NCBI GenBank assembly: GCA_013140465.1
Contig: JABFST010000193.1
Coordinates: forward strand, 1-18,355
Length of the DNA: 18,355 nt
DNA from: Methylococcaceae bacterium
GTDB taxonomy: Bacteria > Pseudomonadota > Gammaproteobacteria > Methylococcales > Methylomonadaceae
Direction: 5' to 3'
Below the pieces are notes generated by a model. That model was not told the DNA's origin and ran no database searches. It saw only the letters and a program-made list of their open reading frames with translations. Below, in pieces: positions 960 to 16,334 of the stretch; the stretch's first letter is position 1, and every line of letters starts with the position of its first letter. The position numbers and the translations under genes are program-made.

Positions 960-3900
960 TTAGTGGCCACCGTGACCGCCGCCGCCGCCACCAGTGCCAG
1001 TACCCGTGGTAAACGAGGTAGGCGTTGGTGGCATGTGTTTTTGTGCTGCTGGCCAGCCGCCTGTTGGCGCTGTTTTGGCATTATACGGTTTTGGTGAACC
1101 CGTAAAGCTTTTTGCCAAGGTATGGCAAGTGTCGCAACCAATGATTTGGCCTTTAACCACTTTCACAGGTTTTCCTGCGGCGTTGGTTAAAGTGCGGTCA
1201 ACCAAGGTTTTAGACAAACGCGTGCCTTTATGGTTATCACCATGACATGCCGCGCATTGGTCTTCGCCATCAGGCCCTGGTTTTTTCGCCATGTCATTAT
1301 GCCAGCCACCATTCAGGTTCTCTTTGTGCGAGCCTGAGCTGGTGTTTTGAGCAGCGCCATCAGCGTGTTTATACCAAGATTCATCACCTACAGGATGTAA
1401 GCCATGTGGTCCTGCCAGATACGCTTTAGCACTGGCGGGTGTCACCACCGTACCATCGCGCACGCCTTGGCCTACGCCTAAACCTGAAGAGCCGCCATCG
1501 GTAGCCACCAAGCCTGTTTTAAAGTCGTCTTTAACGTGACAGACCGAACACTCGGCAATATTGCCGTCATAACCTTGCAATTGCTTGGCTGTTTGGTTGT
1601 CGTTGGCATTAGGTTCTTGGTTAGGCCAGATTGCATGAGAACCGCCGTGGCACGTTGAACAAGTCAATACGCCATTAGCGCCTGAGCCATGGACATCAGC
1701 ACTCTTACGGTAGAGTGCGCCGGACAGTTTTACCAATTTATAGTAAGTTTGTCCTGCGACCACCACTTTACCATCCAAGCCTTTAACACCCGCTGTCACA
1801 TCGGCAGCAGTCGCGGTGGCTTTTTCCGGACGGTCTTCTAGGGTAGGCATAACGGCAAAACGGGCATTCATCGGTGTGACTGAACGGCCTGATTTATCGC
1901 CATCGGACCAAGCTTGCATTAATGCACCTGCACTAAACACATTTTTCAATGGGTGGCTGTGCGTGCCATGTCCAACGCTATCGCCTTCTTTTATGTTGGA
2001 ATCACCAATATGGCATGAGCCACAATCCGGTTCATCCAGCCAAGGGCGGCGATAGTCGGCGGGTTCTATAGCTTCTGCTGTGTCGGCACCAAAAGCACCA
2101 CCACCAGTTAGGTTAGAGTCGTACTCTTCGTTGCTAAATGTATTACCGACTGCCAACATATCGCTATGGCAGTTATCGCACTTCAGGCCAACTGAATAAT
2201 GCACGTCACGGTAGGCTTTTTCAGTTGCACCCGTGTGGCATTTAACGCAGTTTTCTTCTACAGGCACTTGCTTGCCAAACGGCAGCATCAGCTCTGCAAT
2301 AGTTGCGGGTTGTTGCGGATACAAATCAGGCCGCCAGTTGTTCTTTTTGGCGTCATAAGCCACAGATGATTTAACGGTGAAATTACCGCTTGCGTCTGCT
2401 GACAAAGGCACGCCATTGTCATCATTCAACTGCGAATCCCAACCACGACCACCAAATTCTAATGGATGGCCACGCACGTCACGAACCAAGTCGCCTTTTT
2501 TATGCGCCAATCCGTCAACCGCTTCTGCTGCGGTCACGTCTTTTTTATAGACTTGGAATTTGGCATGGAAGGCATGGAACGCACGCGAGTAATCGGAACG
2601 GTTGGTGGCATACGATCTGGCGGTAATGCCCACATCCGATTTCAAATGGCTTTGGTGATGGCCCGAACAGAAATACATCGGTGCCGCACGGCTTTTGCCT
2701 AAGTCATCGGCATAACTATCCGCGACTTGGGTTGAGTAGCTGGCAGGCCAGGTTGCGCCTGTCGCTGGGGTAGGGCCGTAATACACCATGTAGTCATGGG
2801 CAATCAAAGTATTAAACAACGCCGCTTTTTCTTGGTTTACCCAAGAGTCGTCACCGTATTTATCAGCAGCCGCATAATTGATTTGCAGTTGCAAACGCCA
2901 TTCTGGGCCAGCGTTAGCGGGCTTAGTAGGGCTGGTTTCGCCTGTCGGTTTGTCGGTTTTGGTGTCAAACTTCATCCAACGTGAGGCTTTAACACGGTCA
3001 GTACGCAAGCCGTTTTGGTCAACTTTAATGTTAGTGGCGTTGGTTTCATTACCTGTAAGCGTCACACTTAGGTTGCTAAAGTTGGGGTTGCCGTCAATTT
3101 TGTCGTTAAACAAGTTGTGTATGGCAGGTGGCCAGGCTTTGTTGGGGTCTGTGCCTGGATCAAAACCGGAGATTTGTGCTTTGCCGTCGCTACCGTTGCG
3201 GCCAGCACCTGTGGCTGGGCCAGGTTTGGTGGGGTCGGTCAAGTCTTTCAACTCTGCAACTGTAACAGGGGTGCGCCAAGTGTCTTCATCCGCACCTACG
3301 CCACCCGGCAAATGACATTCGCGGCAGCGTGTTTCCGATGCCGTGGTGTAAACCGCATCCACAGTCGATATGGTTTTGCCTGTCCCTTTTTCCTTTGCTT
3401 GTACACGCATTAACGTGAAAGGGTTAGTGCGGCCTTGGTCATCAATGTCACTGGCAGGAATAAACTGTGCCACAAACGCATTTTGAAAACTATTGTAATC
3501 AAATTTTTGCTCATCATTGCTGATATAAGGCTTGGCAGCCCCCGGCATTTTCCGGTTGCCTGTGCCATTGTCCACATAGCCTCTTACCCCTTCATCAGGC
3601 AGCTCACGCGTTCTGGCGGGTGAAAAAGTGCTTTGGTTTTCGGCAAACGTGCCGCTAGTCAGTGGGTAACGATATATCGTGCCTGCTTCAATCAAGCCGT
3701 TTAAGGTCGTGGCTTTTTGGGCATCAGTTTGTGCGTTAAAAGCGGTAATTTCGGCTGCGCTAGGAATGTTTTGGGAAAACAGCGCAGTTTTGTCTGCCGC
3801 TGAAAGGGCGGTAAGATTTTCTAGCTTTTTATCCGCTGCCAATGCCTTATATTCGGCTTCTTTAGCGCGGTTAAACGCTTGGTCTATCCGGTCCCAATGT

Positions 3901-5036
3901 TCGGTTTTGCGGATTTTGGCTTTGCTATAATTTTGCTCGGCCATCAGCTTAACTTTGACGGGTGCTTTGCTGGTCGGGTTAAAAACCGTGGCTGCCTTAT
4001 CCCAGTTTGCCCCGACTACATTGCTGCCAAATAAGTTTTGGCTGGTGGAGTTAATGGAGTTAGGTGCGATAGGGTCTTTGTCGTTAGAGGCCGCAGAGTA
4101 AGTGACCTCTATACTGTTGTTGGCCAATATCGGGGGTTTGTTAGGCAGTTTTTGGATGACTTGCGCGTTTAGGGCGTTGTAGTTAATCATAGACGCGTAA
4201 GGCAAATGTACTTGGCTGCCGCCTTGCATACCGGTTTCTTCAAACGGCAATACCACATACGCGCCGTTATCATTTGCCCCGTTTGCGCCGGGCATTGCTG
4301 ACGCAACTTTGGGCTTGGCCAGTTCAGGCACTTTACCGTTGGGGTTAGTGCCAGCAGCTGGGATGACCGAAACGACGACATCGTCGTTACAGACTTTGTT
4401 GCCAGCTGTATCTATGCCTTTTAACACCACGCGATAACGTCCGACTTGGTCGAACTTGTGGTTGGCGGTGTTGGTTTTTTGGTCTGCCGCGCCATCGTTA
4501 ATAGACCACACCAGCGAAGGTGCTGTGCCTTTTTTGGGGATGTTGATGCTGGCGGTAAAGTTAAGTGTCGCACCTGCAAAGATTTCAGTGTCTTTGGCTG
4601 GAGTAGCAATAGCGCAAGTGGGTACGGTCGCACATGAGCTAGCTGCGCCGGACACCGCCACTAGGGTTTTGAGTTCGCTATTGTCGGCGGCGTTGGTCAC
4701 GTCCAAGCGCACGGCGCAAGGGATGTAGTCGCTGCCTGTCACGGGCAGGCTCATTTTGAACTTGCCCGTGCTATTGGTGTTGATTGTATAGAGGATGACG
4801 TGGTTGCTGGAATCGAAAGCCGTAATTTTGGAATTGGCTGCGATGGTTTTGGCGGTTGTGCCGCTGACCACCACAACACCCAAGGTTTTGTCGTATTTAG
4901 CCGTGGCCTTGATGGGCGCAACCGTTGCGGCAGGCGCCCATGTTGGCGCGGCTGCCAATAAGGCTGCCATTATCGGCGTAAGCCGCAGCAGACCTATGCG
5001 GCTGGGCGGTTTTGCCGTCATTTTAGTGTGGGACAT
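960..5036 (-). CDS. Large exported multiheme c-type cytochrome (eight CxxCH plus one CSGHH)
   Basis: This 1358-aa protein has a signal peptide (about residues 1-37, hydrophobic core near 20-30) and a PKD-like domain (about 145-225). A heme-poor region with one motif follows, then a C-terminal heme cluster. Canonical motifs are CRECH 571, CVKCH 930, CDNCH 953, CGSCH 1005, CSTCH 1126, CSVCH 1163, CAACH 1261 and CDTCH 1301. CSGHH at 790 lacks the second cysteine. The tail is Gly/His-rich (GTGTGGGGGGHGGH). The size and layout recall surface multiheme cytochromes of the OmcA/MtrC type and the large surface cytochromes of methanotrophs. Electron transfer at or outside the outer membrane is therefore the likely role, with partners unknown. 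The start at 5036 has AGGAG six bases upstream. The gene appears monocistronic: terminators follow it and a long divergent region precedes it. Periplasmic rather than surface location cannot be excluded. Confidence 0.88.
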   Translation of the reverse strand: MSHTKMTAKPPSRIGLLRLTPIMAALLAAAPTWAPAATVAPIKATAKYDKTLGVVVVSGTTAKTIAANSKITAFDSSNHVILYTINTNSTGKFKMSLPVTGSDYIPCAVRLDVTNAADNSELKTLVAVSGAASSCATVPTCAIATPAKDTEIFAGATLNFTASINIPKKGTAPSLVWSINDGAADQKTNTANHKFDQVGRYRVVLKGIDTAGNKVCNDDVVVSVIPAAGTNPNGKVPELAKPKVASAMPGANGANDNGAYVVLPFEETGMQGGSQVHLPYASMINYNALNAQVIQKLPNKPPILANNSIEVTYSAASNDKDPIAPNSINSTSQNLFGSNVVGANWDKAATVFNPTSKAPVKVKLMAEQNYSKAKIRKTEHWDRIDQAFNRAKEAEYKALAADKKLENLTALSAADKTALFSQNIPSAAEITAFNAQTDAQKATTLNGLIEAGTIYRYPLTSGTFAENQSTFSPARTRELPDEGVRGYVDNGTGNRKMPGAAKPYISNDEQKFDYNSFQNAFVAQFIPASDIDDQGRTNPFTLMRVQAKEKGTGKTISTVDAVYTTASETRCRECHLPGGVGADEDTWRTPVTVAELKDLTDPTKPGPATGAGRNGSDGKAQISGFDPGTDPNKAWPPAIHNLFNDKIDGNPNFSNLSVTLTGNETNATNIKVDQNGLRTDRVKASRWMKFDTKTDKPTGETSPTKPANAGPEWRLQLQINYAAADKYGDDSWVNQEKAALFNTLIAHDYMVYYGPTPATGATWPASYSTQVADSYADDLGKSRAAPMYFCSGHHQSHLKSDVGITARSYATNRSDYSRAFHAFHAKFQVYKKDVTAAEAVDGLAHKKGDLVRDVRGHPLEFGGRGWDSQLNDDNGVPLSADASGNFTVKSSVAYDAKKNNWRPDLYPQQPATIAELMLPFGKQVPVEENCVKCHTGATEKAYRDVHYSVGLKCDNCHSDMLAVGNTFSNEEYDSNLTGGGAFGADTAEAIEPADYRRPWLDEPDCGSCHIGDSNIKEGDSVGHGTHSHPLKNVFSAGALMQAWSDGDKSGRSVTPMNARFAVMPTLEDRPEKATATAADVTAGVKGLDGKVVVAGQTYYKLVKLSGALYRKSADVHGSGANGVLTCSTCHGGSHAIWPNQEPNANDNQTAKQLQGYDGNIAECSVCHVKDDFKTGLVATDGGSSGLGVGQGVRDGTVVTPASAKAYLAGPHGLHPVGDESWYKHADGAAQNTSSGSHKENLNGGWHNDMAKKPGPDGEDQCAACHGDNHKGTRLSKTLVDRTLTNAAGKPVKVVKGQIIGCDTCHTLAKSFTGSPKPYNAKTAPTGGWPAAQKHMPPTPTSFTTGTGTGGGGGGHGGH

Positions 5037-6989: not shown

Positions 6990-9098
6990 ATGAAAATAAC
7001 AAAAATAGGAGCCGTACTGGCTGTTATCGGCCTAATCGGTGGCGGCTTTGCGCTGCCATTTTTTACGGCTAGCACTAACAGCGAAGAATTGGTGTTAGGA
7101 CACGGTAACGTAGATGCCTTGCAAGGTGTGTATCAGCAATGGCAAAACCATTATCAGGCGCGTGGCGGTGATGCCACACAGTTACGCTTGCCCTTGGCGC
7201 ATTCCCGCTTGTTATCGACCAGCGCATCCAAGGCGCGTGGCGCGATGACGCTTAACTTAATGACAGGTGCGGTGACGGTAAAGGCCAGCGGTTTAGAGGC
7301 CAGTGCCTATGATGTTTGGTTGGTTGATAACCTTGACGGCCCCAACCGCACGGTAAAGCCCGAAGCGGGGGATAGGTTTTTCCGCTTGGGTACGCTGGCT
7401 GCCGACCAACATCGCGGGGAATTAAGCACGTCTATTGATGCTAAGGCATTGGCGGGTTTTAACATTGACATGGTGGTCATGTCTTTGGCGGGGCAAAGTC
7501 CTGACCAAAGCTTGGTGATTGCGGGTGCGCCGGATTTGTTGCAGCGTTTGTATTATGCTGACAAGTTGTGGGCAAAGGCGACTTTAGGGCCGTTGCAAGC
7601 CGTTGCCGAAACTACTTCGGCGTTTGCTTTTTTGTTGCCTAAAGTCGCTAATGCCAAAAGCAATGGCAATGATGCTAATCTTGCGGCGGTGATGGGGGCT
7701 GAAATTGCCGAAGGGCGTAGGCTTTTTACTAAAGAAACGTTTAGTGGCAATGGGCGCACTTGTGCCACTTGCCATCGCTTAGACCACAACCACACGATAG
7801 ATCCTAAATACATTGCCCGCTTGCCGCCTACGGATCCGTTGTTTGTTGCCGAAACCAATCCCGCCTTAAAAACAGGTTTTGAAAACCCGAAGCTGATGCG
7901 CGAATTGGGCCTGATTTTGGCGAACATTGATGGTTTTGACAAACCGGGTGTTATGCGCAGCGTGCCGCATACCTTGGCGTTAGCCAAAAGCATCCAAACC
8001 GAAGGCACGGTGCGTGACGACCAAGGCGTGTTACTTAAAGGCGAGTTTGACTTGGATCTGGAGTTTGCCCATGCTTTAGGTTGGTCGGGTGACGGCTCGG
8101 TCGGTACAGGGTCGTTACGCGAGTTTGCCATAGGGGCTGTGGTGCAGCATTTCACCAAATCATTGGCGCGTAAGCCTGGCGCCGATTTTCGTTTGCCTAC
8201 CGATGCCGAGCTGAATGCCTTGGAAGCTTATATGCTGTCCTTGGGCCGTAGTGACGACATCAACTTAAGCAAAATGACGTTTACCTCGGCTATCGTGCAG
8301 CGCGGCAAAGTGTTGTTTGACCAAAAGAACAATCCGGTCGATCCTGTGACCAAAAAGCCAATATTAGGCAAATCCGCCAATTGTAACGGTTGCCATAGCA
8401 ATGCCGGGGCGATTAGTTCTACCACGCGCGGCAACCCGACCCGCGATACGGGTGTTGAGGTGATGGAAGACCAAGCTGCGGTGTTGGTGGATCCCACCAC
8501 GCCTATGGATGGCGGTATAGGCGATGAAGACAAATTGGGCTGGTGCGCCGATAACGATCCCGATACCCGCTGCAATTATGGCGAGGGCCGCTTTAACACG
8601 CCGCCGTTGATTGAGGCGGCAGACACCGCGCCTTTTTTCCATAACAATAGCGTCAGCACCTTAGAAGAAGCGGTGGCTTTTTATAATACCGATGCGTTTA
8701 ATAACTCCCCTGGGCATTTGACTTCTTCTAAGGCTGACCGGACGGTAAAAATCAGTTCTTCGCAAGTCGTGGCAGTGTCTTTGTTCTTGCGCACTATCAA
8801 TGCCTTAGAAAATATCAGAAACGCTAATAAGCTAGCTGACCAAGCGATGGCCTTAAATGGCAGCAATGGGCGGGAATTGGCGCGTTTGGCAATGGAGGAT
8901 ACGGAAGATGCAATAGAAGTGTTGACCGAAGGCCAGCTCATTCCTGACCAAGCGGCGGTAGCCAAGTTAAGGTCTGCTTATAATTATGAGTATTCGGCGG
9001 CGTTGTCGCCTTCTACTACGTTGCGCAATACCTTGTTAAGAAAAGCAAAAGCCTTAAAGCTTGAAGCCGATGCGTTGATGGTGACGAGGGCGCCTTGA
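6990..9098 (+). CDS. Di-heme c-type cytochrome of the MauG / cytochrome c peroxidase family with an N-terminal extra domain
   Basis: This 702-aa protein carries two heme motifs, CATCH at 258-262 and CNGCH at 465-469, separated by about 205 residues as in di-heme peroxidases. The surrounding features are also typical (EGRRLFTKETFSGNGRTCATCH, NTPPLIEAADTAPFFHNNSV). An N-terminal hydrophobic segment (residues 5-25) serves for export or membrane anchoring. Residues about 85-180 form a separate beta-rich part (YDVWLVDN, FFRLGTL) not present in ordinary ~350-residue peroxidases, and the C-terminal ~100 residues are predicted helical. Members reduce hydrogen peroxide or oxidise protein side chains with electrons from cytochromes. 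The large, surface-associated peroxidase of methanotrophs is a possible relative. The ribosome site is weak (only A-rich sequence before the ATG). The gene is isolated and convergent with modE; whether it pairs with the multiheme cytochrome is unknown. Confidence 0.85.
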   Translation: MKITKIGAVLAVIGLIGGGFALPFFTASTNSEELVLGHGNVDALQGVYQQWQNHYQARGGDATQLRLPLAHSRLLSTSASKARGAMTLNLMTGAVTVKASGLEASAYDVWLVDNLDGPNRTVKPEAGDRFFRLGTLAADQHRGELSTSIDAKALAGFNIDMVVMSLAGQSPDQSLVIAGAPDLLQRLYYADKLWAKATLGPLQAVAETTSAFAFLLPKVANAKSNGNDANLAAVMGAEIAEGRRLFTKETFSGNGRTCATCHRLDHNHTIDPKYIARLPPTDPLFVAETNPALKTGFENPKLMRELGLILANIDGFDKPGVMRSVPHTLALAKSIQTEGTVRDDQGVLLKGEFDLDLEFAHALGWSGDGSVGTGSLREFAIGAVVQHFTKSLARKPGADFRLPTDAELNALEAYMLSLGRSDDINLSKMTFTSAIVQRGKVLFDQKNNPVDPVTKKPILGKSANCNGCHSNAGAISSTTRGNPTRDTGVEVMEDQAAVLVDPTTPMDGGIGDEDKLGWCADNDPDTRCNYGEGRFNTPPLIEAADTAPFFHNNSVSTLEEAVAFYNTDAFNNSPGHLTSSKADRTVKISSSQVVAVSLFLRTINALENIRNANKLADQAMALNGSNGRELARLAMEDTEDAIEVLTEGQLIPDQAAVAKLRSAYNYEYSAALSPSTTLRNTLLRKAKALKLEADALMVTRAP

Positions 9099-9184: not shown

Positions 9185-9991
9185 CTAAATGCCCAAAATC
9201 ACAGCATTGCTTTTAAACACGGCATACACCCAGTCATCCAACTTTAAGGCCAATGTTTCGGCACTGCTTTGGGTGATGGTAGCCATTAAAGTGTCGCCGC
9301 TAGCCAATTTTAACGCCAACACCGCGTCCGTGCCGTCTTGCCGGATGCGGATTACCGTGCCGCCTAAACGGTTACGCGCAGAGACGGAATAGTCGTCATT
9401 TTGGGTGCCGACTATAATTTCCGCATCATTAATCAACATCACCACATCACTGCCCAGCACCACGCCTAGGGTTTCCAATTCGGCGATTGCCAGCGATGCA
9501 ATAACCGTTTCCCCACCTTTTAAGCCTATTTGCACTTCGGCATGAACGCCGCTACCGATTTCTATTGCCGTGACTGTGCCGAACAATTGGTTAGTGGCGC
9601 TGGTTTTAATGGCTAAGCGTTTAAACAGCAAGTGCATTTCGCCGTTAGCCGCCAGTTCTTGGTTAAGTTGGCTGATGAAGTGCTGGTGCTGTTCGGTGAG
9701 CTGCCCAAACAAGCGTAACAACGCCATGCCTGCTGTAGTCAGTTGTGTGCCGCCGCCTTTGCTGCCGCCTGTTGCGGTGGCAACCAACACTTTGGGTGCG
9801 AGGTTGTTGGCGCGTTCTATCATTTGCCACGCGCCTTTGTAACTCAGCCCCACTTGTTTGGCTGCTTGGTTGATAGAGCCGCTTTGTGCGATGGCGGACA
9901 ATAAGCCTATCATGCGCCCATCCAAAGCGCCGACTAAGCGTAAGTCGCCTTCTACCCATGTGGGGGCGGCGGTGTTTACAGGTTTGAGCAT
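9185..9991 (-). CDS. modE: Molybdate-responsive transcription regulator ModE
   Basis: This 268-aa protein has the two-part ModE structure. An N-terminal winged helix-turn-helix (about 15-90) includes SGSINQAAKQVGLSYKGAW and the wing-side GGSKGGGTQLT. A linker with a helix follows, then two Mop (molybdate-binding) domains at about 126-195 and 202-268. SATNQLFGTV and SARNRLGGTV are the oxyanion-binding starts. ModE dimers bound to molybdate or tungstate bind DNA and usually repress the transporter operon. AAGGA lies a few bases before the ATG at 9991. The gene is divergent from the molbindin gene and shares a 130-bp intergenic region with it, where a matching ModE-type site is present, so autoregulation is possible. 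Confidence 0.95.
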   Translation of the reverse strand: MLKPVNTAAPTWVEGDLRLVGALDGRMIGLLSAIAQSGSINQAAKQVGLSYKGAWQMIERANNLAPKVLVATATGGSKGGGTQLTTAGMALLRLFGQLTEQHQHFISQLNQELAANGEMHLLFKRLAIKTSATNQLFGTVTAIEIGSGVHAEVQIGLKGGETVIASLAIAELETLGVVLGSDVVMLINDAEIIVGTQNDDYSVSARNRLGGTVIRIRQDGTDAVLALKLASGDTLMATITQSSAETLALKLDDWVYAVFKSNAVILGI

Positions 9992-10040: not shown

Positions 10041-10064
10041 CGTTATTTACTTTTATACATAAAG
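10041..10064 (+). promoter_or_regulatory. ModE-type operator over the molbindin promoter
   Basis: The 24-bp site reads CGTTAT-N9-TACATAA-AG and fits the layout of the E. coli ModE site (CGTTAT...TACATAACG) with the same spacing. It covers a -35-like TTTACT (10046-10051), followed after 16 bases by TATACT (10068-10073). Binding there would block RNA polymerase, so repression by molybdate-loaded ModE is expected. It also lies upstream of modE on the other strand. Confidence 0.8.
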
Positions 10065-10121: not shown

Positions 10122-10550
10122 ATGAAAACCAGTGCCCGTAACCAATTTCCAGGTATCGTCAACGCTGTGCAAATCGGCGCAGTCAATGCTGAAGTCCATG
10201 TCGGCCTTGCAGGTGGCGCAAATATTGTTGCCACTATCACCAAAGAGTCGGTGGACACTTTGGGCATAGAAGTCGGCAAAGCGGTTATTGCTTTAGTTAA
10301 AGCGCCACAAATTATTTTAGTCACGGATTTTGGTGGCTACCGCGTTTCAGCGCGTAACCAATTGCCCGGCACGATCACCCAAGTCAAGCCGGGTGCTGTC
10401 AATACCGAAGTGGATATAGAACTGGTAGGCGGTGAAGCGGTCGCTGCATCGATTACCAATGATAGCGCAGAAACTTTAGGCTTGCGCAAAGGTTTGGCGG
10501 TCACGGCAATTTTTAAGGCAGGTTCGGTGATTTTGGCGGTGGCAGCTTAA
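10122..10550 (+). CDS. Molbindin with two Mop domains (molybdate/tungstate-binding protein)
   Basis: This 142-aa protein consists of two Mop repeats and nothing else. The first begins with SARNQFPGIV at residue 4 and the second with SARNQLPGTI at residue 76; each ends in a hydrophobic strand (IILVTD, VILAVA). The length equals that of tandem-Mop molbindins such as ModG of Azotobacter. These proteins assemble in the cytoplasm and store or buffer molybdate and tungstate. GAGG six bases before the ATG is a good ribosome site. The gene stands between modE and the modABC operon, and its promoter carries the ModE site. I see no clear terminator behind it, so read-through into the next unit is possible. 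Confidence 0.92.
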   Translation: MKTSARNQFPGIVNAVQIGAVNAEVHVGLAGGANIVATITKESVDTLGIEVGKAVIALVKAPQIILVTDFGGYRVSARNQLPGTITQVKPGAVNTEVDIELVGGEAVAASITNDSAETLGLRKGLAVTAIFKAGSVILAVAA

Positions 10551-10644: not shown

Positions 10645-10668
10645 CGTTATTTACTTTAGTACATAATG
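10645..10668 (+). promoter_or_regulatory. ModE-type operator over the promoter of the PstS-like/modABC operon
   Basis: The site reads CGTTAT-N9-TACATAA-TG and is nearly identical to the one at 10041-10064; the first 14 bases, CGTTATTTACTTTW, are shared. It again overlaps a -35-like TTTACT (10650-10655), with TACACT (10672-10677) 16 bases downstream. The start codon of the first gene is about 75 bases further on. This makes the whole downstream unit a probable ModE target. Confidence 0.8.
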
Positions 10669-10750
10669 CTTTACACTTAAATCTCGCAATTTCTGACGAT
10701 GCCTTATTTTCTTGATGATGGGGCGCAATTTAGCTTGAGAGGTTTAACCG

Positions 10751-12403
10751 ATGAACAACTTAAAGAAACTCACGATAGTTTTGGGCTTTTTGGGCAGCGT
10801 CCCATTGTGCCATGCCTTGACACCTTGGACAGACGGTGCGCCTGATCTGGTGGTCTATACCTCGGGCGGCCCTGCGCTGGATGCGGCGTTTGCCAAGATT
10901 GTCACTAATACCTTGGCTGCCGCCAATACCGTGGATACGTTTAGTGATGTTGCTTCTACGGGCACAATAGGCGGGCGTTGGCAGGCGTTTTATTTTACTG
11001 GCAGCAGTAATTTGGGGACGACCTTGGCGGGCAAAAAAATTATCTTAGAAAAACGGACTTACGGTTCCGGCGGTTACGGGGTTGTGCCGCTGTATGCCAA
11101 TAATGGCCAAGGTTTGCCCTTAGAACATTTGAATATTGTCGGTTTGGGTGTTGCGGCTTGGGAAGCCGACGGCACGACGGGCAAAAAATGGAAAAAATCC
11201 CTAACGGGCAGCAATGCCGCTACTTATTTGACTAAAATCATTTCTGATGCCGGATTTTTGGCTTTAGATCCCGTTGCCTTGTTAAAACCTGCAACCGAAA
11301 ACTATCCTGAGCAAGTCAAAGAACTCATCAGTGGTGATTTTGAGCCAAACTGGCCTTTAGACATTAGCAAAACTCCCGACAATTTTACGGTTATCGGCAC
11401 AGGCGGCTATGTATATGGCGTGGAAGTTACCGAAGATTTTTACCGTGTGTTACAGGCGGCGCAGCAAAAATCGGGGATATTGCCATCAACCGTTAGCATA
11501 GGCACTTATACTGACGCGGCTATGCCTAGTTTAAGCCGGAATTTTTTGGCGTCTTTGTTGGCTGGAAAAATTAGCCATTGGGAACAAATTAAGGTCGTAG
11601 AAAAAGCGACGGGTACGGCAATTCCTTTGACCGATCCCAGTATTCTGGCTTTGGCGGGCGTAAAAGCCCCGCCGCTCAATAAGGATGGTATTACGCCTGT
11701 GGGTGTGGGTCGTCGCAACAAGGGGGCCACTTCGGCAGTGGTGGCTTATGCGCGTTTGTTGGGTTATCCGTTTACGGCGCGGTCCAACCCACCTGCCGCC
11801 AACACGCCAAATAGTGATGACAGTTTTGCCGCGCCTATAGTTAAATCACCCACGAGTTTAGGCGCAACAGATCTGTTATTGATCGATTGGCAAACGGGCA
11901 CTAACGTTTCCGGCCTTAACCCAAGCTTGACTAAGTTATGGGGTGTTGCCATCACTGGGGGCGACCGTGATCCTGGCGCAACTGCGGCAGGTGTCGGCGG
12001 CAAGCCGTGGCGTTATATTAAAGTGGATGGCGCGGCGCCAACGATAGAAAATGTTGCGGCGGGCGTGTATCCCTTATGGGCTGAAGGCACGGTGCTATAC
12101 CCAACGGAAAAATCCAGTGACCCGCAATGGGGCTTGAAGAAAGCTTTGCTAAAAGTGTTTGCCGAAGATATGGGCAGCCCCACTTTGGCGAAAACCGTAA
12201 ACTCCAGCCTGACGTTTGGGGTCAGCGGTATATTTGCCACCACTAAAGACCCGCGTGGCTTTAAGGCCAGTGTGCCTTTCGATCCTAACAATCCTGTTGT
12301 AGCTCTAACCCACAATTGTGTTGGCACGTCCACCACCAGTGCGTTGATTGTCCCTGTGGCAGATGATACTGCTATAGGTGGTCTGCAATTACAACTGAAA
12401 TAG
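10751..12403 (+). CDS. Secreted PstS-like substrate-binding protein at the head of the mod operon
   Basis: This 550-aa protein has a signal peptide (hydrophobic 7-19, cleavage near CHA-LT). It has the marks of the phosphate-binding-protein fold: VVYTSGGPALDAAF at 34-47, YGSGGYG at 104-110, LAGKISHWEQI at 270-280, and GVGRRNKGATSAVVAYARL starting at 318. VYPLWAEGTVLY near 440 is the usual late strand. Bacterial PstS is about 350 residues, so this is a long variant with extra segments around 130-210 and 345-430. The mature form keeps one cysteine, C523. GAGAGG lies eight bases before the ATG. The gene is the first of five, only 14 bases before the PKD gene, behind a ModE-type promoter. Its ligand is not known: phosphate, molybdate, tungstate or another ligand are all possible. 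It may act extracellularly or bind a surface rather than feed a transporter. Confidence 0.82.
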   Translation: MNNLKKLTIVLGFLGSVPLCHALTPWTDGAPDLVVYTSGGPALDAAFAKIVTNTLAAANTVDTFSDVASTGTIGGRWQAFYFTGSSNLGTTLAGKKIILEKRTYGSGGYGVVPLYANNGQGLPLEHLNIVGLGVAAWEADGTTGKKWKKSLTGSNAATYLTKIISDAGFLALDPVALLKPATENYPEQVKELISGDFEPNWPLDISKTPDNFTVIGTGGYVYGVEVTEDFYRVLQAAQQKSGILPSTVSIGTYTDAAMPSLSRNFLASLLAGKISHWEQIKVVEKATGTAIPLTDPSILALAGVKAPPLNKDGITPVGVGRRNKGATSAVVAYARLLGYPFTARSNPPAANTPNSDDSFAAPIVKSPTSLGATDLLLIDWQTGTNVSGLNPSLTKLWGVAITGGDRDPGATAAGVGGKPWRYIKVDGAAPTIENVAAGVYPLWAEGTVLYPTEKSSDPQWGLKKALLKVFAEDMGSPTLAKTVNSSLTFGVSGIFATTKDPRGFKASVPFDPNNPVVALTHNCVGTSTTSALIVPVADDTAIGGLQLQLK

Positions 12404-12417
12404 CTGAGGATTGTGCC

Positions 12418-13671
12418 ATGTGGAATAACTTACTATGCGTGTTCGTGCTGTTGTGGGGTTTGTTTGCAACACCTGCACTAGCCGCTGCAAATAAAAGCCC
12501 AGTGGTTGCCATTGCTAAAATTGCAGCGGTTAATGAAGGTGCTGTTGTCACTTTAGATGGGAGTGGCAGCACCGATAAAGACGGTGCGCTTGCAAAATAC
12601 TTATGGCAGCAAACCAAAGGTTCCACTACGGTGGCTTTAACGGCGGCGAATACGGCAAAAGCGGGGTTTACCGCGCCGTCGATTGTTAAGACCGACAAGC
12701 CTACTGTGGCGATTAAGCTGAGTTTTAAGCTGACAGTGACCGACAATCAGAATGCCAGTGCCAGTAAAACCGTGGTGGTTACGGTTAATCCGGTGAATAT
12801 CGTACCCATAGCACAGGCGGGCAACGATATGACCGTAGGCTTAAACAAGCTGGCTACGCTAGATGGCAGCCGCAGTAAAGACGATGGCAAGATAATCGCT
12901 TATGCTTGGCGGCAAACCAAGGGTAAGAAAGTGGCGTTAAAAAATGCCAATAAACCCCAGGCGACTTTCACAAGTGCTAATGTCACCGAGGTGTTGGAGT
13001 TTCAACTGACAGTGACCGATAACGACAAGAAAACCGCTACGGATACGGTATCAGTGAGTGTGACTGATACCCCGCCGCTGGCGTTGTCGGCAAATTTTAG
13101 CGTTGATAAGACCAGCCTGAGCAAAGGTGATGCGGCAACAGCGGGCATCAGCAACATCATTGGCGGTACTGCGCCTTATACGGTTAAGGTTGCTTGGGGC
13201 GATGGTTCAGCCACCGAAGAGTCGGTATTAGCTACTGGCGTGGCAGCTAAATCAGTTTCCCATGTGTATGCGTCTGCGGGTACTTTTACTGTCAGCTTGT
13301 TAGTGACAGATGCCGCTGGTGCCAGCAAATCGCACACCAGTGTGCTGACGGTTGCAGAACCTGTAAAACCGCTGGCGGCGGAATTTACCCTGAACAACAC
13401 GGTAGTCGTGGTGGGCGATACCGTGCTTGCCGCCGCTAAAAATATTGTTGGTGGGAGTGCGCCGTATAAGGTCAAATATGATTGGGGTGATGGTACGCCT
13501 GTTCAAGAATTGGCTTTGGCGGCAGGTGTCACCAGCCAATCTGCCAGCCATAACTACGCGGCTAATGGCGAGTTTGCCTTAGTCATCACTGTGACCGATG
13601 CCAATAACGGCGTTAAAACCTTTACTGTCCCGATCACGGTACAGGTCGCCAATCCCTTAGGGGAATGCTAG
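12418..13671 (+). CDS. Secreted protein with four Ig/PKD-like repeats, in the mod operon
   Basis: This 417-aa protein has a signal peptide (1-22, cleavage near ALA-AA) and four beta-sandwich units. Units 1 and 2 (about 27-124 and 128-216) share the pattern LDGS...W.QTKG...LTVTDN. Units 3 and 4 (about 222-313 and 320-410) are PKD domains with AWGDGS and DWGDGT and the end pattern HVYASAGTF or HNYAANGEF. There is no transmembrane anchor; the protein ends in NPLGEC. TGAGGA seven bases before the ATG and the 14-base gap show coupling to the PstS-like gene. PKD repeats commonly give protein-protein or protein-polymer contact outside the cell, so it could be a scaffold or partner for the preceding binding protein. 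It is not a standard mod gene. Units 1 and 2 resemble the partial protein at 1-450. Confidence 0.82.
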   Translation: MWNNLLCVFVLLWGLFATPALAAANKSPVVAIAKIAAVNEGAVVTLDGSGSTDKDGALAKYLWQQTKGSTTVALTAANTAKAGFTAPSIVKTDKPTVAIKLSFKLTVTDNQNASASKTVVVTVNPVNIVPIAQAGNDMTVGLNKLATLDGSRSKDDGKIIAYAWRQTKGKKVALKNANKPQATFTSANVTEVLEFQLTVTDNDKKTATDTVSVSVTDTPPLALSANFSVDKTSLSKGDAATAGISNIIGGTAPYTVKVAWGDGSATEESVLATGVAAKSVSHVYASAGTFTVSLLVTDAAGASKSHTSVLTVAEPVKPLAAEFTLNNTVVVVGDTVLAAAKNIVGGSAPYKVKYDWGDGTPVQELALAAGVTSQSASHNYAANGEFALVITVTDANNGVKTFTVPITVQVANPLGEC

Positions 13672-13713
13672 TTGCAGTAAATTTATAGAGCCTTACATTG
13701 GAGAGAATACTTT

Positions 13714-14475
13714 ATGTCAATTCATCGTGTTTTTCGTTTGGGCGGCTGTTTGGCGTTATTGCTGCTGTGTTCGAGTGCTTGGTCGGCGAGTGTGTTGGTT
13801 GCGGTCGCATCTAATTTCAGTAAGCCCATGACCGAAATTGCCGCCGAATTTGCCAAGGCGACAGGGCATGAAGCCAAGTTGTCGTTTGGTTCTACGGGCA
13901 AGTTTGTCGCGCAAATTGAAAACGGTGCGCCGTTTGAGGTGTTGTTATCGGCTGACGAAAAAGGCCCGATAAAATTGGAGCAAGCCCATTTAGCCGAGCC
14001 GGGCAGCCGTTTTGTCTATGCTTTGGGGCAATTGGTGTTATGGTCGGCGACGCCGGGTTTTGTCGATGCCCAAGGCAAGGTGTTAAGTACCGGCCAATTT
14101 AAGCATTTGGCCTTGGCTGACCCAAAACTTGCACCCTATGGGGCTGCCGCTATAGAAGTATTACAAAAACAAGGTTTGCTGGAAAAATTGCAGCCTTTGT
14201 TTGTGCAAGGCGAAAACATCGCCCAAACCTTGCAGTTTATTAGCACTGGCAATGCCGAATTGGGTTTTGTCGCTTATTCACAAGTGCTGGAAAACGGTAA
14301 AATCGCTAATGGTTCTGCTTGGCTAGTCCCTAGCGATAACTTTACGCCGATCCGCCAAAGTGCCGTGTTATTAAAGCTAGGCGCAAAAAATCCGGTGGCG
14401 GCGGCGTTATTGGCTTATTTAAAAACCCCCGAGGCGTTAGCGATTATTAAAAAATATGGTTATGACTTACCTTAA
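13714..14475 (+). CDS. modA: Molybdate ABC transporter, periplasmic binding protein ModA
   Basis: This 253-aa protein has a signal peptide (1-24, cleavage SAWS-A) and the full ModA pattern. VAVASNF (S33) and SFGSTG (S60) supply the oxyanion-binding serines. ADPKLAPYGAAA (135-146) and the QGENIAQTLQFISTG segment (165-179) form the second half of the site, with GFVAYSQ after it. The mature protein delivers molybdate (and usually tungstate) to ModBC. GGAGAG lies eight bases upstream of the ATG. It follows the PKD gene by 42 bases and precedes modB by 45. Confidence 0.95.
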   Translation: MSIHRVFRLGGCLALLLLCSSAWSASVLVAVASNFSKPMTEIAAEFAKATGHEAKLSFGSTGKFVAQIENGAPFEVLLSADEKGPIKLEQAHLAEPGSRFVYALGQLVLWSATPGFVDAQGKVLSTGQFKHLALADPKLAPYGAAAIEVLQKQGLLEKLQPLFVQGENIAQTLQFISTGNAELGFVAYSQVLENGKIANGSAWLVPSDNFTPIRQSAVLLKLGAKNPVAAALLAYLKTPEALAIIKKYGYDLP

Positions 14476-14520
14476 ATACTTGCTTACACGAGCCAATCAA
14501 CCCTACGCCCTTAGGCTTTT

Positions 14521-15207
14521 ATGCTGACTGCGGCTGATCTGGACACCTTGGTGTTGACCTTTAAAGTAGCCAGTCTTGCAACGGCGTTCATGCTGGTTTT
14601 AGGCACGCCGCTGGCGTGGTGGCTGGCGCGTACCCGTTCGCATTGGCGAGGCTTTATCAATGCCTTGGTGGCTTTGCCGCTGGTGTTGCCACCTACGGTT
14701 TTGGGGTTTTATTTGTTGGTCATGTTGGGGCCGTCTGGCGTAGTTGGCCAGTTCATGCTGGCTTTGGGTTTAGATGCGTTGCCGTTTACGTTTGCAGGTT
14801 TGGTCGTCGCTTCGGTGCTGTATTCCTTGCCGTTTGTTGTCCAGCCATTACAGGCGGCTTTCACCAGTATAGGCGCACATCCCTTAGAAGCGGCGGCAAC
14901 CTTGCGCGCCAGTCCATTAGACACGTTTTTTACGGTTGTGGTGCCGCTGGCTAAACCTGGTTTTTTAACGGCAACCATTTTAGGGTTTACCCATACGGTC
15001 GGCGAATTTGGCGTGGTGCTTATGGTTGGCGGTAATATCCCCGACAAGACCCGGGTTGTCTCGGTGCAAATTTACAATCATGTTGAAGCCTTGGAATACA
15101 GCCAAGCCCACGGCCTAGCCGCGTGTTTGTTGGTGTTTTCGTTTACCGTGTTACTGATACTTTATACGGTGTTGAAAACCCCTGCCACGACGGGGCTAGG
15201 CAAATGA
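14521..15207 (+). CDS. modB: Molybdate ABC transporter, membrane permease ModB
   Basis: This 228-aa inner-membrane protein has about five hydrophobic segments (roughly 10-35, 46-68, 88-110, 148-168, 198-217). The cytoplasmic EAA loop (EAAATLRASPLDTF at 123-136 and following) contacts the ATPase. The HTVGEFGVVLMVGGNIPDKT stretch is characteristic of ModB. The length is normal. The ribosome site is weak (AGG before the T-run), so translation may be partly coupled to modA. Its stop overlaps the start of modC by four bases (ATGA). Confidence 0.94.
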   Translation: MLTAADLDTLVLTFKVASLATAFMLVLGTPLAWWLARTRSHWRGFINALVALPLVLPPTVLGFYLLVMLGPSGVVGQFMLALGLDALPFTFAGLVVASVLYSLPFVVQPLQAAFTSIGAHPLEAAATLRASPLDTFFTVVVPLAKPGFLTATILGFTHTVGEFGVVLMVGGNIPDKTRVVSVQIYNHVEALEYSQAHGLAACLLVFSFTVLLILYTVLKTPATTGLGK

Positions 15208-16283
15208 CCGATATGATTAGCGCACGCTTTCAGCTGGATTACGGCGAGTTTAATTTAGACGTTGATTTGCAACTGCCCAGTACCGGCGTTACGGTGTTGT
15301 TTGGTCATTCCGGCTCGGGCAAGACCACGTTGCTGCGTTGTATGGCAGGTTTGCAGCGGGCGCCTGTGGGCTTTATGGCGATTAACGGCTGCTGTTGGCA
15401 AGACAGCGCGAAGGCTTGGTTTTTGCCCACGTTTAAGCGCAACTTGGGTTATGTGTTTCAGGAAGCCAATTTATTCGCCCATTTGACGGTGGCGGGTAAT
15501 TTGCACTACGGCGTTAAGCGCGCAGCCAAAGCGGTCGGGCATAAGGAGTTGCAGGTGATTATCGAATTATTGGGTATTGGGCATTTGTTGGCCAGATGGC
15601 CCGACCGTTTGTCGGGTGGCGAACGCCAACGCGTCGCCATCGCCAGGGCATTGGCGTTGCAGCCTGATATTTTATTGATGGATGAGCCGCTCGCGGCTTT
15701 GGATCAGCAACGCAAGCAAGAAATTCTGCCGTATTTGGCCCGCTTACACCAACACTGCGCAATCCCGATTATTTATGTGACCCATGCCCAGCAAGAAGTG
15801 GCGCAATTGGCTGATACTTTGGTCATTTTGTCTAAAGGGCGTGTTGTTGCCAGTGGTGTAATTGCAGAAACTTTAGGCCATTTGGCGGGGATAGCGGGGC
15901 AAGACGGTCTTGCCGCCTGCGTTTGGCAAGTGACTGTGGTTAGCCATGATGACGAGTTTCTGCTGACGCGTGTTGAGTTTGCGGGTGGTGCGCTGAGTTT
16001 GCCGTTAATTGATGCCGCCATCGGCACACAATTGCGTATCCAAATTTATGCGCGGGATGTCAGCATTGCTATGGCGGCACCAACGGCGAGCAGTATTCTG
16101 AATGTATTGCCCGCAACGATTATAGGTTTAGCCGATGATGCGCAAGGACAAAGCGTGGTGCGCTTACAAGTGGGTACGCAAATCTTGCTGGCGCATATTA
16201 CCCGCAAATCGGCGGTCATGTTGGGTTTGCGCAGTGGTCTGGCAGTTTTTGTGCAGCTTAAGGGGATTTCGTTGGTGCATTGA
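15204..16283 (+). CDS. modC: Molybdate ABC transporter, ATP-binding protein ModC
   Basis: This is a 359-aa ATPase. Walker A is GHSGSGKT (34-41), the Q-loop is at Q86, the signature LSGGE at 136-140, Walker B LLMDEP at 157-162, and the switch histidine H194 (YVTH). A C-terminal Mop/TOBE domain (about 294-359) can bind molybdate and may regulate transport. The open frame extends further upstream, but the start at 15204 is preferred. It gives the normal ModC N-terminus, and its ATGA overlaps the modB stop, as expected for coupled translation. It is the last gene of the unit and a terminator follows. Confidence 0.95.
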   Translation: MTDMISARFQLDYGEFNLDVDLQLPSTGVTVLFGHSGSGKTTLLRCMAGLQRAPVGFMAINGCCWQDSAKAWFLPTFKRNLGYVFQEANLFAHLTVAGNLHYGVKRAAKAVGHKELQVIIELLGIGHLLARWPDRLSGGERQRVAIARALALQPDILLMDEPLAALDQQRKQEILPYLARLHQHCAIPIIYVTHAQQEVAQLADTLVILSKGRVVASGVIAETLGHLAGIAGQDGLAACVWQVTVVSHDDEFLLTRVEFAGGALSLPLIDAAIGTQLRIQIYARDVSIAMAAPTASSILNVLPATIIGLADDAQGQSVVRLQVGTQILLAHITRKSAVMLGLRSGLAVFVQLKGISLVH

Positions 16284-16289
16284 TAAGAC

Positions 16290-16334
16290 AACTAGAGGTC
16301 GCCCCAAGCTTGCGGGTGTGGCCTCTAGTTTTAT
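16290..16334 (+). terminator. Terminator after modC, probably bidirectional
   Basis: AACTAGAGG (16290-16298) pairs with CCTCTAGTT (16322-16330), with a few further wobble pairs inside and TTTTAT after the stem. It starts seven bases behind the modC stop. It also lies just past the end of the convergent gene at 16347-16991, so it can serve both. Confidence 0.65.

Follow-up and report, generated by a model that had tools for sequence, protein, structure and literature searches.

A probable extended ModE-type mod operon in a Methylococcaceae bacterium, led by genes for a predicted PstS-fold protein and a PKD protein

The window analyzed here is a stretch of 18,355 nucleotides (contig C68, JABFST010000193.1) from a Methylococcaceae bacterium, the assembly of which, a MAG with 83% completeness, totals 3.6 Mb over 507 contigs. 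Its plus strand carries five genes, in the order PSTSL (10751–12403), a gene for a PKD protein (12418–13671), modA (13714–14475), modB (14521–15207) and modC (15204–16283), with gaps of 14, 42 and 45 bases followed by a 4-base overlap, coordinates that agree with the five-gene unit described in an earlier note on this DNA. The ModABC transporter is identified by matches above the NCBIfam cut-offs for all three genes, namely the molybdate-binding protein ModA (TIGR01256, 231.4 bits, cut-off 62.5), the permease ModB (TIGR02141, 233.6 bits, cut-off 182.6), and the ATPase ModC, which has a TOBE domain and an ATG start (TIGR02142, 414.9 bits, cut-off 285.05). Upstream lie mop (10122–10550, plus strand), encoding a di-TOBE protein of the molybdate-binding type that matches TOBE and, in two stretches, TIGR00638 (Mop, 146.8 bits), and, divergent from the operon, modE (9185–9991, minus strand), encoding a Mo-responsive regulator with HTH and Mop/TOBE domains. 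The sole modE match over its cut-off is that of the Mop domain (93.6 bits, cut-off 55), with PRK10676 below (140.4 bits, cut-off 369) and ModE_repress narrowly below (94.3 bits, cut-off 98.5). Just 3' of modC (16290–16334, plus strand), the sequence folds into a terminator-like hairpin (-26.5 kcal/mol, z -4.1), the U tract of which is short (UUUU, the first two within the stem), and folding finds no hairpin in the PKD–modA gap (z +1.8), consistent with the proposal that a terminator follows modC only; the terminator scan, which counted loops of up to 8 bases, does not list this hairpin. Among the window ORFs, no TpsA, TpsB or pst permease gene was recognized.

The site at 10645–10668 (plus strand), 82 bp 5' of the PSTSL ATG, is a 24-base palindrome in which 15 of 16 defined bases agree with CGTTATNTA-N6-TANATAACG, and a ModE-type palindrome between modE and mop (10041–10064, plus strand) likewise has 1 mismatch in 16. 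These two are the only sites in the whole assembly with at most 1 mismatch, and the window holds 2 sites at up to 3 mismatches, where 200 shuffled versions average 0.05, bearing out the ModE-type site that had been proposed. We note that only the best sites are meaningful, as the assembly-wide count at up to 3 mismatches is no different from the control (23 vs 24). The promoter that was placed at this site is the weak point of the observation: TTTACT-16-TACACT, read by eye, does put a candidate -35 across the palindrome, but agrees with only 8 of 12 promoter bases, and is omitted, as is the modC terminator, from a promoter and terminator scan the totals of which are at chance level. An equivalent arrangement is seen at the twin site 5' of mop (TTTACT-16-TATACT), and this one the scan does list.

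PSTSL encodes a protein of 550 aa with a signal-like stretch at its N-terminus (by-eye reading), the predicted model of which (pLDDT 90.7, pTM 0.89) has a PstS fold by structure comparison. It nevertheless falls outside the PstS sequence family, as it matches no Pfam or NCBIfam family at E 0.01, and its profile finds no PDB sequence at E 1. A protein search in which 8000 candidates were scored gave 115 clusters, none with a precomputed Pfam domain and all, where the names are readable, called "hypothetical" or "uncharacterized protein"; the nearest named kin to carry the gene (L034, 91% identity) comes from a Methylococcales MAG. For the family search, the bar for inclusion was set at E 1e-80. 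Excluding sequences below 390 aa, duplicates, and L063, L229, L232 and L233, we obtained a tree of 81 rows, and an alignment of 80 rows for the pocket analysis once L041, with its very long branch, was set aside. In this sample, which is non-random because the loci were gathered by similarity to the window gene, TpsB (ShlB + POTRA_2) or TpsA (PF05860) is encoded within 6 kb in 55 of 81 rows, and a PSTSL paralog in the window's own genome (L060, with glycine at residue 171) sits before TpsB. PSTSL thus represents a family without a name, the genes of which mostly neighbour those for two-partner secretion (TPS).

To place the window gene among its relatives, we used a ModE matrix trained on the sites of other genes, namely 27 sites before AlgE-type genes and mop in the loci of the modB survey described below. 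Over the 350 bases 5' of each of 80 PSTSL genes, it gives 17 scores of at least 11.8, the highest of which (31.6) belongs to the window's box; for comparison, a score of 10 is attained by 5, and a score of 8 by 11, of the 383 unlabelled genes that these loci contain. With 500-base upstream regions, 18 of 81 PSTSLs score at least 11.5, as compared to none of 81 with the reversed matrix (20 vs 6 at a looser cut-off of 6). Including four further rows in mop-led units (L204, L213, L216 and L219), ModE-linked PSTSLs occupy 22 of 81 rows, in 22 genomes, six genera (g1, g13, g15, g24, g32 and that of P-RSF-IL-13, matched through G124 to genus g14) and two families; 12 of these rows have TPS genes within 6 kb. 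Across the 81 rows of the tree, 8 have modA or modB within 6 kb of PSTSL, and 12 have modE. A broader Mo label (given for any box up to 2.5 kb away, or for a neighbouring modA, modB, modE or mop) applies to 32 of 81 rows and requires 10 changes on the tree, compared to 25.4 when shuffled (0 of 500 shuffles as low), an effect to which near-copies add; 37 of the 55 TPS-adjacent rows lack even this label.

The most direct parallels to the window are found in genus g13, in which two loci (L213 in G259, L216 in G268) have the order modE, box, mop, PSTSL, modA, modB, modC, a third (L219 in G271) has mop-PSTSL and ends in PSTSL, and a fourth (L204 in G267) reads mop-modABC-PSTSL-TpsB-TpsA on one strand, with 431 bases from modC to PSTSL. 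In family f4 (L075–L077), a boxed PSTSL adjoins a PKD gene and has modA within 6 kb, with a Porin_O_P gene between PSTSL and modA in L076. The grouping of a PstS-like gene and a PKD gene with modABC, for which a search of other genomes had been suggested, recurs in its PSTSL–modABC part, but a PKD gene stands directly before modA in no other locus examined.

PstS motifs (such as ISDVDP and GSGT) are recognizable in distant PSTSL clades and altered in the 58-row clade that contains the window. Within this clade, residue 171 is alanine in 17 of 19 ModE-linked rows vs 2 of 39 others. Likewise, serine, threonine or alanine occupies residue 328 in 18 of 19 vs 2 of 39. The top 20 columns marking ModE linkage are, in order, 328, 369, 107, 103, 370, 375, 41, 171, 368 and 330, followed by 106, 59, 258, 319, 494, 329, 40, 387, 532 and 321; ten fall within loops that correspond, by motif order, to the anion pocket of PstS and ten fall outside, with loop bounds that were drawn after the column list was known. 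The profile alignment between PSTSL and PstS is confident around residues 260–332 only, and loops 40–41 and 103–107 and residue 171 are placed by motif order. At the equivalents of D56, S139 and T141, which we take to be phosphate ligands in PstS, the window protein has A171, A326 and S328 in the motif alignment (with profile backing for 326–328 and not for 171), suggesting on this alignment that the phosphate ligands are replaced in the window's clade.

The Fisher value for these pocket differences (1e-10) is overstated given kinship, as the tree holds just 4–5 independent pairs: about 2 show a joint change, about 2 do not, and none runs contrary (sign test p 0.5); with so few independent contrasts, we regard this as a pattern and not as proof. 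Moreover, there is no single Mo signature, since the ModE-linked f4 proteins (L075–L077) retain a D56-like aspartate, and L204 and L211 are ModE-linked yet have G171. Two A-type rows (L227 and L230) have weak boxes only (5.3 and 6.4). A G171 and an A171 protein occur as a pair in five loci (L034, L065, L067, L197 and L207), and the window genome has one copy of each.

The PKD protein (417 aa) matches the K319L-like PKD domain PF22352 in two stretches (136.6 bits) and PKD_4 (PF18911, 95.2 bits), both over their cut-offs, and has a cysteine at its C-terminus and, by eye, a putative N-terminal signal peptide. PSTSL in turn has C523, which is found in 9 of 58 rows and is the only cysteine beyond residue 30 in the rows concerned. 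In a stop-to-stop search over 2 kb downstream of all 58 rows, a PKD gene directly follows all 9 C523 rows (in L195 opposite another ORF) vs 0 of 49 others, 8 of which have fewer than 600 readable bases downstream and some of which are truncated ahead of column 523. In all 8 PKD partners that are complete, a cysteine is among the final three residues. As the C523 rows form a single clade, the pairing counts, on these sequences, as one event. We consider that the PKD protein probably pairs with PSTSL, perhaps through a disulfide link.

With regard to what leads modABC in related bacteria, modB is present in 69 of 121 genomes, and the survey of these 69 loci includes 7 with no modB ORF called and 15 with no modA called directly 5' of modB. 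In the other 47 loci, the gene before modA encodes an AlgE-type barrel (30), is unlabelled (9), lies on the opposite strand (4), is a ModE-like fragment (2), is cut (1), or, in the window, encodes the PKD protein (1). This AlgE-type outer-membrane barrel is PF13372 in the six that were typed. A barrel at least 50% identical to that of G035 occurs in 7 of 23 genomes queried, and in none of G000, G259 and G268, where PSTSL leads modABC; G002, G048 and G141 have both such a barrel and a ModE-linked PSTSL. In some lineages, the barrel may be replaced by the predicted secreted PSTSL–PKD pair. Within Methylococcales, there are also loci that combine a ModE-type box with genes for a TonB receptor, a binding protein and a di-haem protein.

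Taking these observations together, we find it somewhat probable that the locus is a ModE-controlled molybdate/tungstate operon with a secreted PstS-fold oxyanion binder, recruited from a TPS-linked family. Textbook molybdate uptake starts at periplasmic ModA, the Mo requirement of methanotrophs stems from formate dehydrogenase, nitrate reductase and nitrogenase, and in E. coli it is Mo-loaded ModE that represses. By this rule, low cytoplasmic molybdate would take ModE off the box, and the five genes would be expressed as one operon; PSTSL would be exported and catch its oxyanion at or near the outer membrane, to be handed to periplasmic ModA and imported by ModBC. The ligand is probably molybdate or tungstate. 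Most likely, the operon makes a secreted oxyanion trap and its partner along with the transporter when Mo is short, and by analogy the trap would work through capture of the PstS/ModA type, at or beyond the periplasm. Recruitment would have been from a family that mostly accompanies TPS exoproteins, with the pocket altered on recruitment. The earlier note had suggested a secreted module, made when molybdate is scarce, that captures an oxyanion or releases it from a mineral or polymer; capture is the part of this that we retain, and nothing in the data supports release. More tentatively, it is quite possible that Methylococcales practice ModE-regulated extracytoplasmic Mo scavenging by secreted PstS-fold proteins, often beside a TPS exoprotein able to display them, which would pass molybdate or tungstate to ModABC, and that the pocket changed repeatedly in duplicated TPS-linked copies under ModE, giving the G-type/A-type paralog pairs.

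The prevalence of TPS genes beside PSTSL, mostly with no Mo label, their retention in 12 of the 22 ModE-linked rows, and the position of the own-genome paralog before TpsB would all suit a different role, in which PSTSL and the PKD protein form a TPS-type surface or adhesion module that ModE places under Mo control for the sake of attachment or the choice of a niche when Mo is limiting. The PstS fold would then have a structural role, with no Mo oxyanion bound. In Methylococcus capsulatus, moreover, PKD proteins are predicted to be secreted, with two reported to be surface-located (PMC4257694). Against such a module, pocket-type loops differ between ModE-linked and other copies, and some copies (the window, L213 and L216) stand in mod operons with no TPS genes nearby. 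We consider this explanation unlikely.

Alternatively, PSTSL could bind another oxyanion or a Mo complex (vanadate, phosphate or metallophore-bound Mo), in which case its production when Mo is limiting would provide a substitute or offset competition at ModA. The predicted PstS core fold and the aspartate retained in f4 are compatible with this, and the ModE-box loci with a TonB receptor suggest that more than free molybdate may be handled; in the window's clade, however, the absence, by motif alignment, of equivalents of D56, S139 and T141 argues against ordinary phosphate binding, and the gene shares a unit with modABC. We regard this option as rather improbable. That the joint between PSTSL-PKD and modABC is a chimera of the assembly, or reflects a fortuitous insertion with no shared function, could be argued from the fragmented and incomplete MAG, from the position of the PKD gene, unique among the loci examined, and from the nearest kin genome (G002), where PSTSL-PKD lies in a TPS locus whereas modB is carried by a different contig. 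Set against these are the four g13 arrangements described above, and as two genomes of another genus have mop-PSTSL-modABC, the joint is probably no chimera; we give this explanation very little credence. We retain the ModE-controlled operon with a secreted oxyanion binder as our preferred reading.

How scarce molybdate is delivered to and across the Gram-negative outer membrane is poorly known, and the locus bears on this question, as a PSTSL in a mod operon points to an unstudied way of catching Mo outside the cell membrane. It also provides a protein family that has no name with a ligand and a regulator that can be tested, for which the G171/A171 paralog pairs are built-in controls. Among the papers listed for TPS with molybdate, methanotrophs or PstS, none deals with such a link in its title or in the opening of its abstract, and the same holds for the 20 listed of 160 for TPS with ModE. 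In Pseudomonas aeruginosa, the TPS pair PdtA/PdtB is under phosphate starvation control through PhoB and the sigma factor VreI (PMC7035377), resembling the control proposed for ModE-linked PSTSL-TPS loci in its dependence on nutrient starvation, but differing in nutrient (phosphate, not Mo) and regulator, and with no PSTSL mentioned in the part of that paper drawn on here. Methylococcus capsulatus Bath, of the same bacterial order, has the TPS pair MCA2226–MCA2227 and, close by in gene number, the PKD protein MCA2224, and is in this respect similar to the PSTSL loci; "molybd" does not occur in the main text of that study (PMC4257694). The TpsB/TpsA (FhaC/FhaB) type of locus is matched by most PSTSL rows and by the own-genome paralog locus, and not by the window itself. 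Compared to PstS and DING proteins, PSTSL is longer (550 aa vs some 240–380 for the solved chains compared), lacks a sequence-family match, and, in the window's clade, has its D56, S139 and T141 equivalents replaced in the motif alignment. Finally, the window resembles E. coli-type ModE-regulated modABC, the palindrome of which is quoted as ATCGNTATATA-N6-TATATANCGAT (PMC545781), in its modABC genes, its 24-base palindrome and its divergent modE, but differs in that the operon is led by two extra genes for predicted secreted proteins; in its kin, an AlgE-type barrel is commonly the leading gene.

Among the comparison loci, the gene order at L123 (9613-16076, genome G062) suggests a link between molybdenum (Mo) and two-partner secretion (TPS) of another, second kind, in which a ModE-type box lies directly 5' of a gene for the exoprotein TpsA (1072 aa, with TPS and GLUG domains), accompanied by genes for an SBP_bac_11 binding protein (353 aa) and for a 575-aa protein with weak similarity to TpsB. 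We note that this box carries 2 mismatches and is weak taken alone. At TPS loci with the PstS-fold family (PSTSL) and no Mo link, a gene of 250-311 aa often stands upstream of PSTSL (for example L048, 6805-7596; L055, 8153-8971; and L070, 11047-11898; others as well), and two of the three upstream genes tested gave a PEP-CTERM match slightly under the cut-off.

At L065 (9979-12053, genome G057), two genes are divergent from a PSTSL gene with a ModE box: one is a CCP_MauG-like di-haem gene, and the other, of 182 aa, has a weak, below-cut-off match to molybdopterin oxidoreductase; adjoining genes of similar size occur at L205, L208 and L209. The window itself encodes a 702-aa di-haem-type cytochrome adjoining modE (6990-9098), with weak MauG and MbnH-type matches, and, on the minus strand, a 1358-aa multihaem cytochrome (960-5036) that has a PKD domain at its N terminus and also contains an MtrC/MtrF-like domain. 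In related genomes (L034, 8690-9835, and several loci of the modB survey), mop is separated from the second ModE box by a gene for a ModC-like, TOBE-containing ABC ATPase, which the window lacks at this place.

Finally, ModE-type boxes precede a TonB-receptor gene at L122 (3505-8321, G062; 0 mismatches), L126 (7758-9959 and on, G039; 2 mismatches) and L131 (8014-12804, G117; 2 mismatches), the receptor being typed in L122 and L126. The sets further include a binding protein (SBP_bac_6) and a di-haem oxidoreductase (DHOR), typed at L122 and L131, and may represent an outer-membrane uptake operon under Mo regulation.
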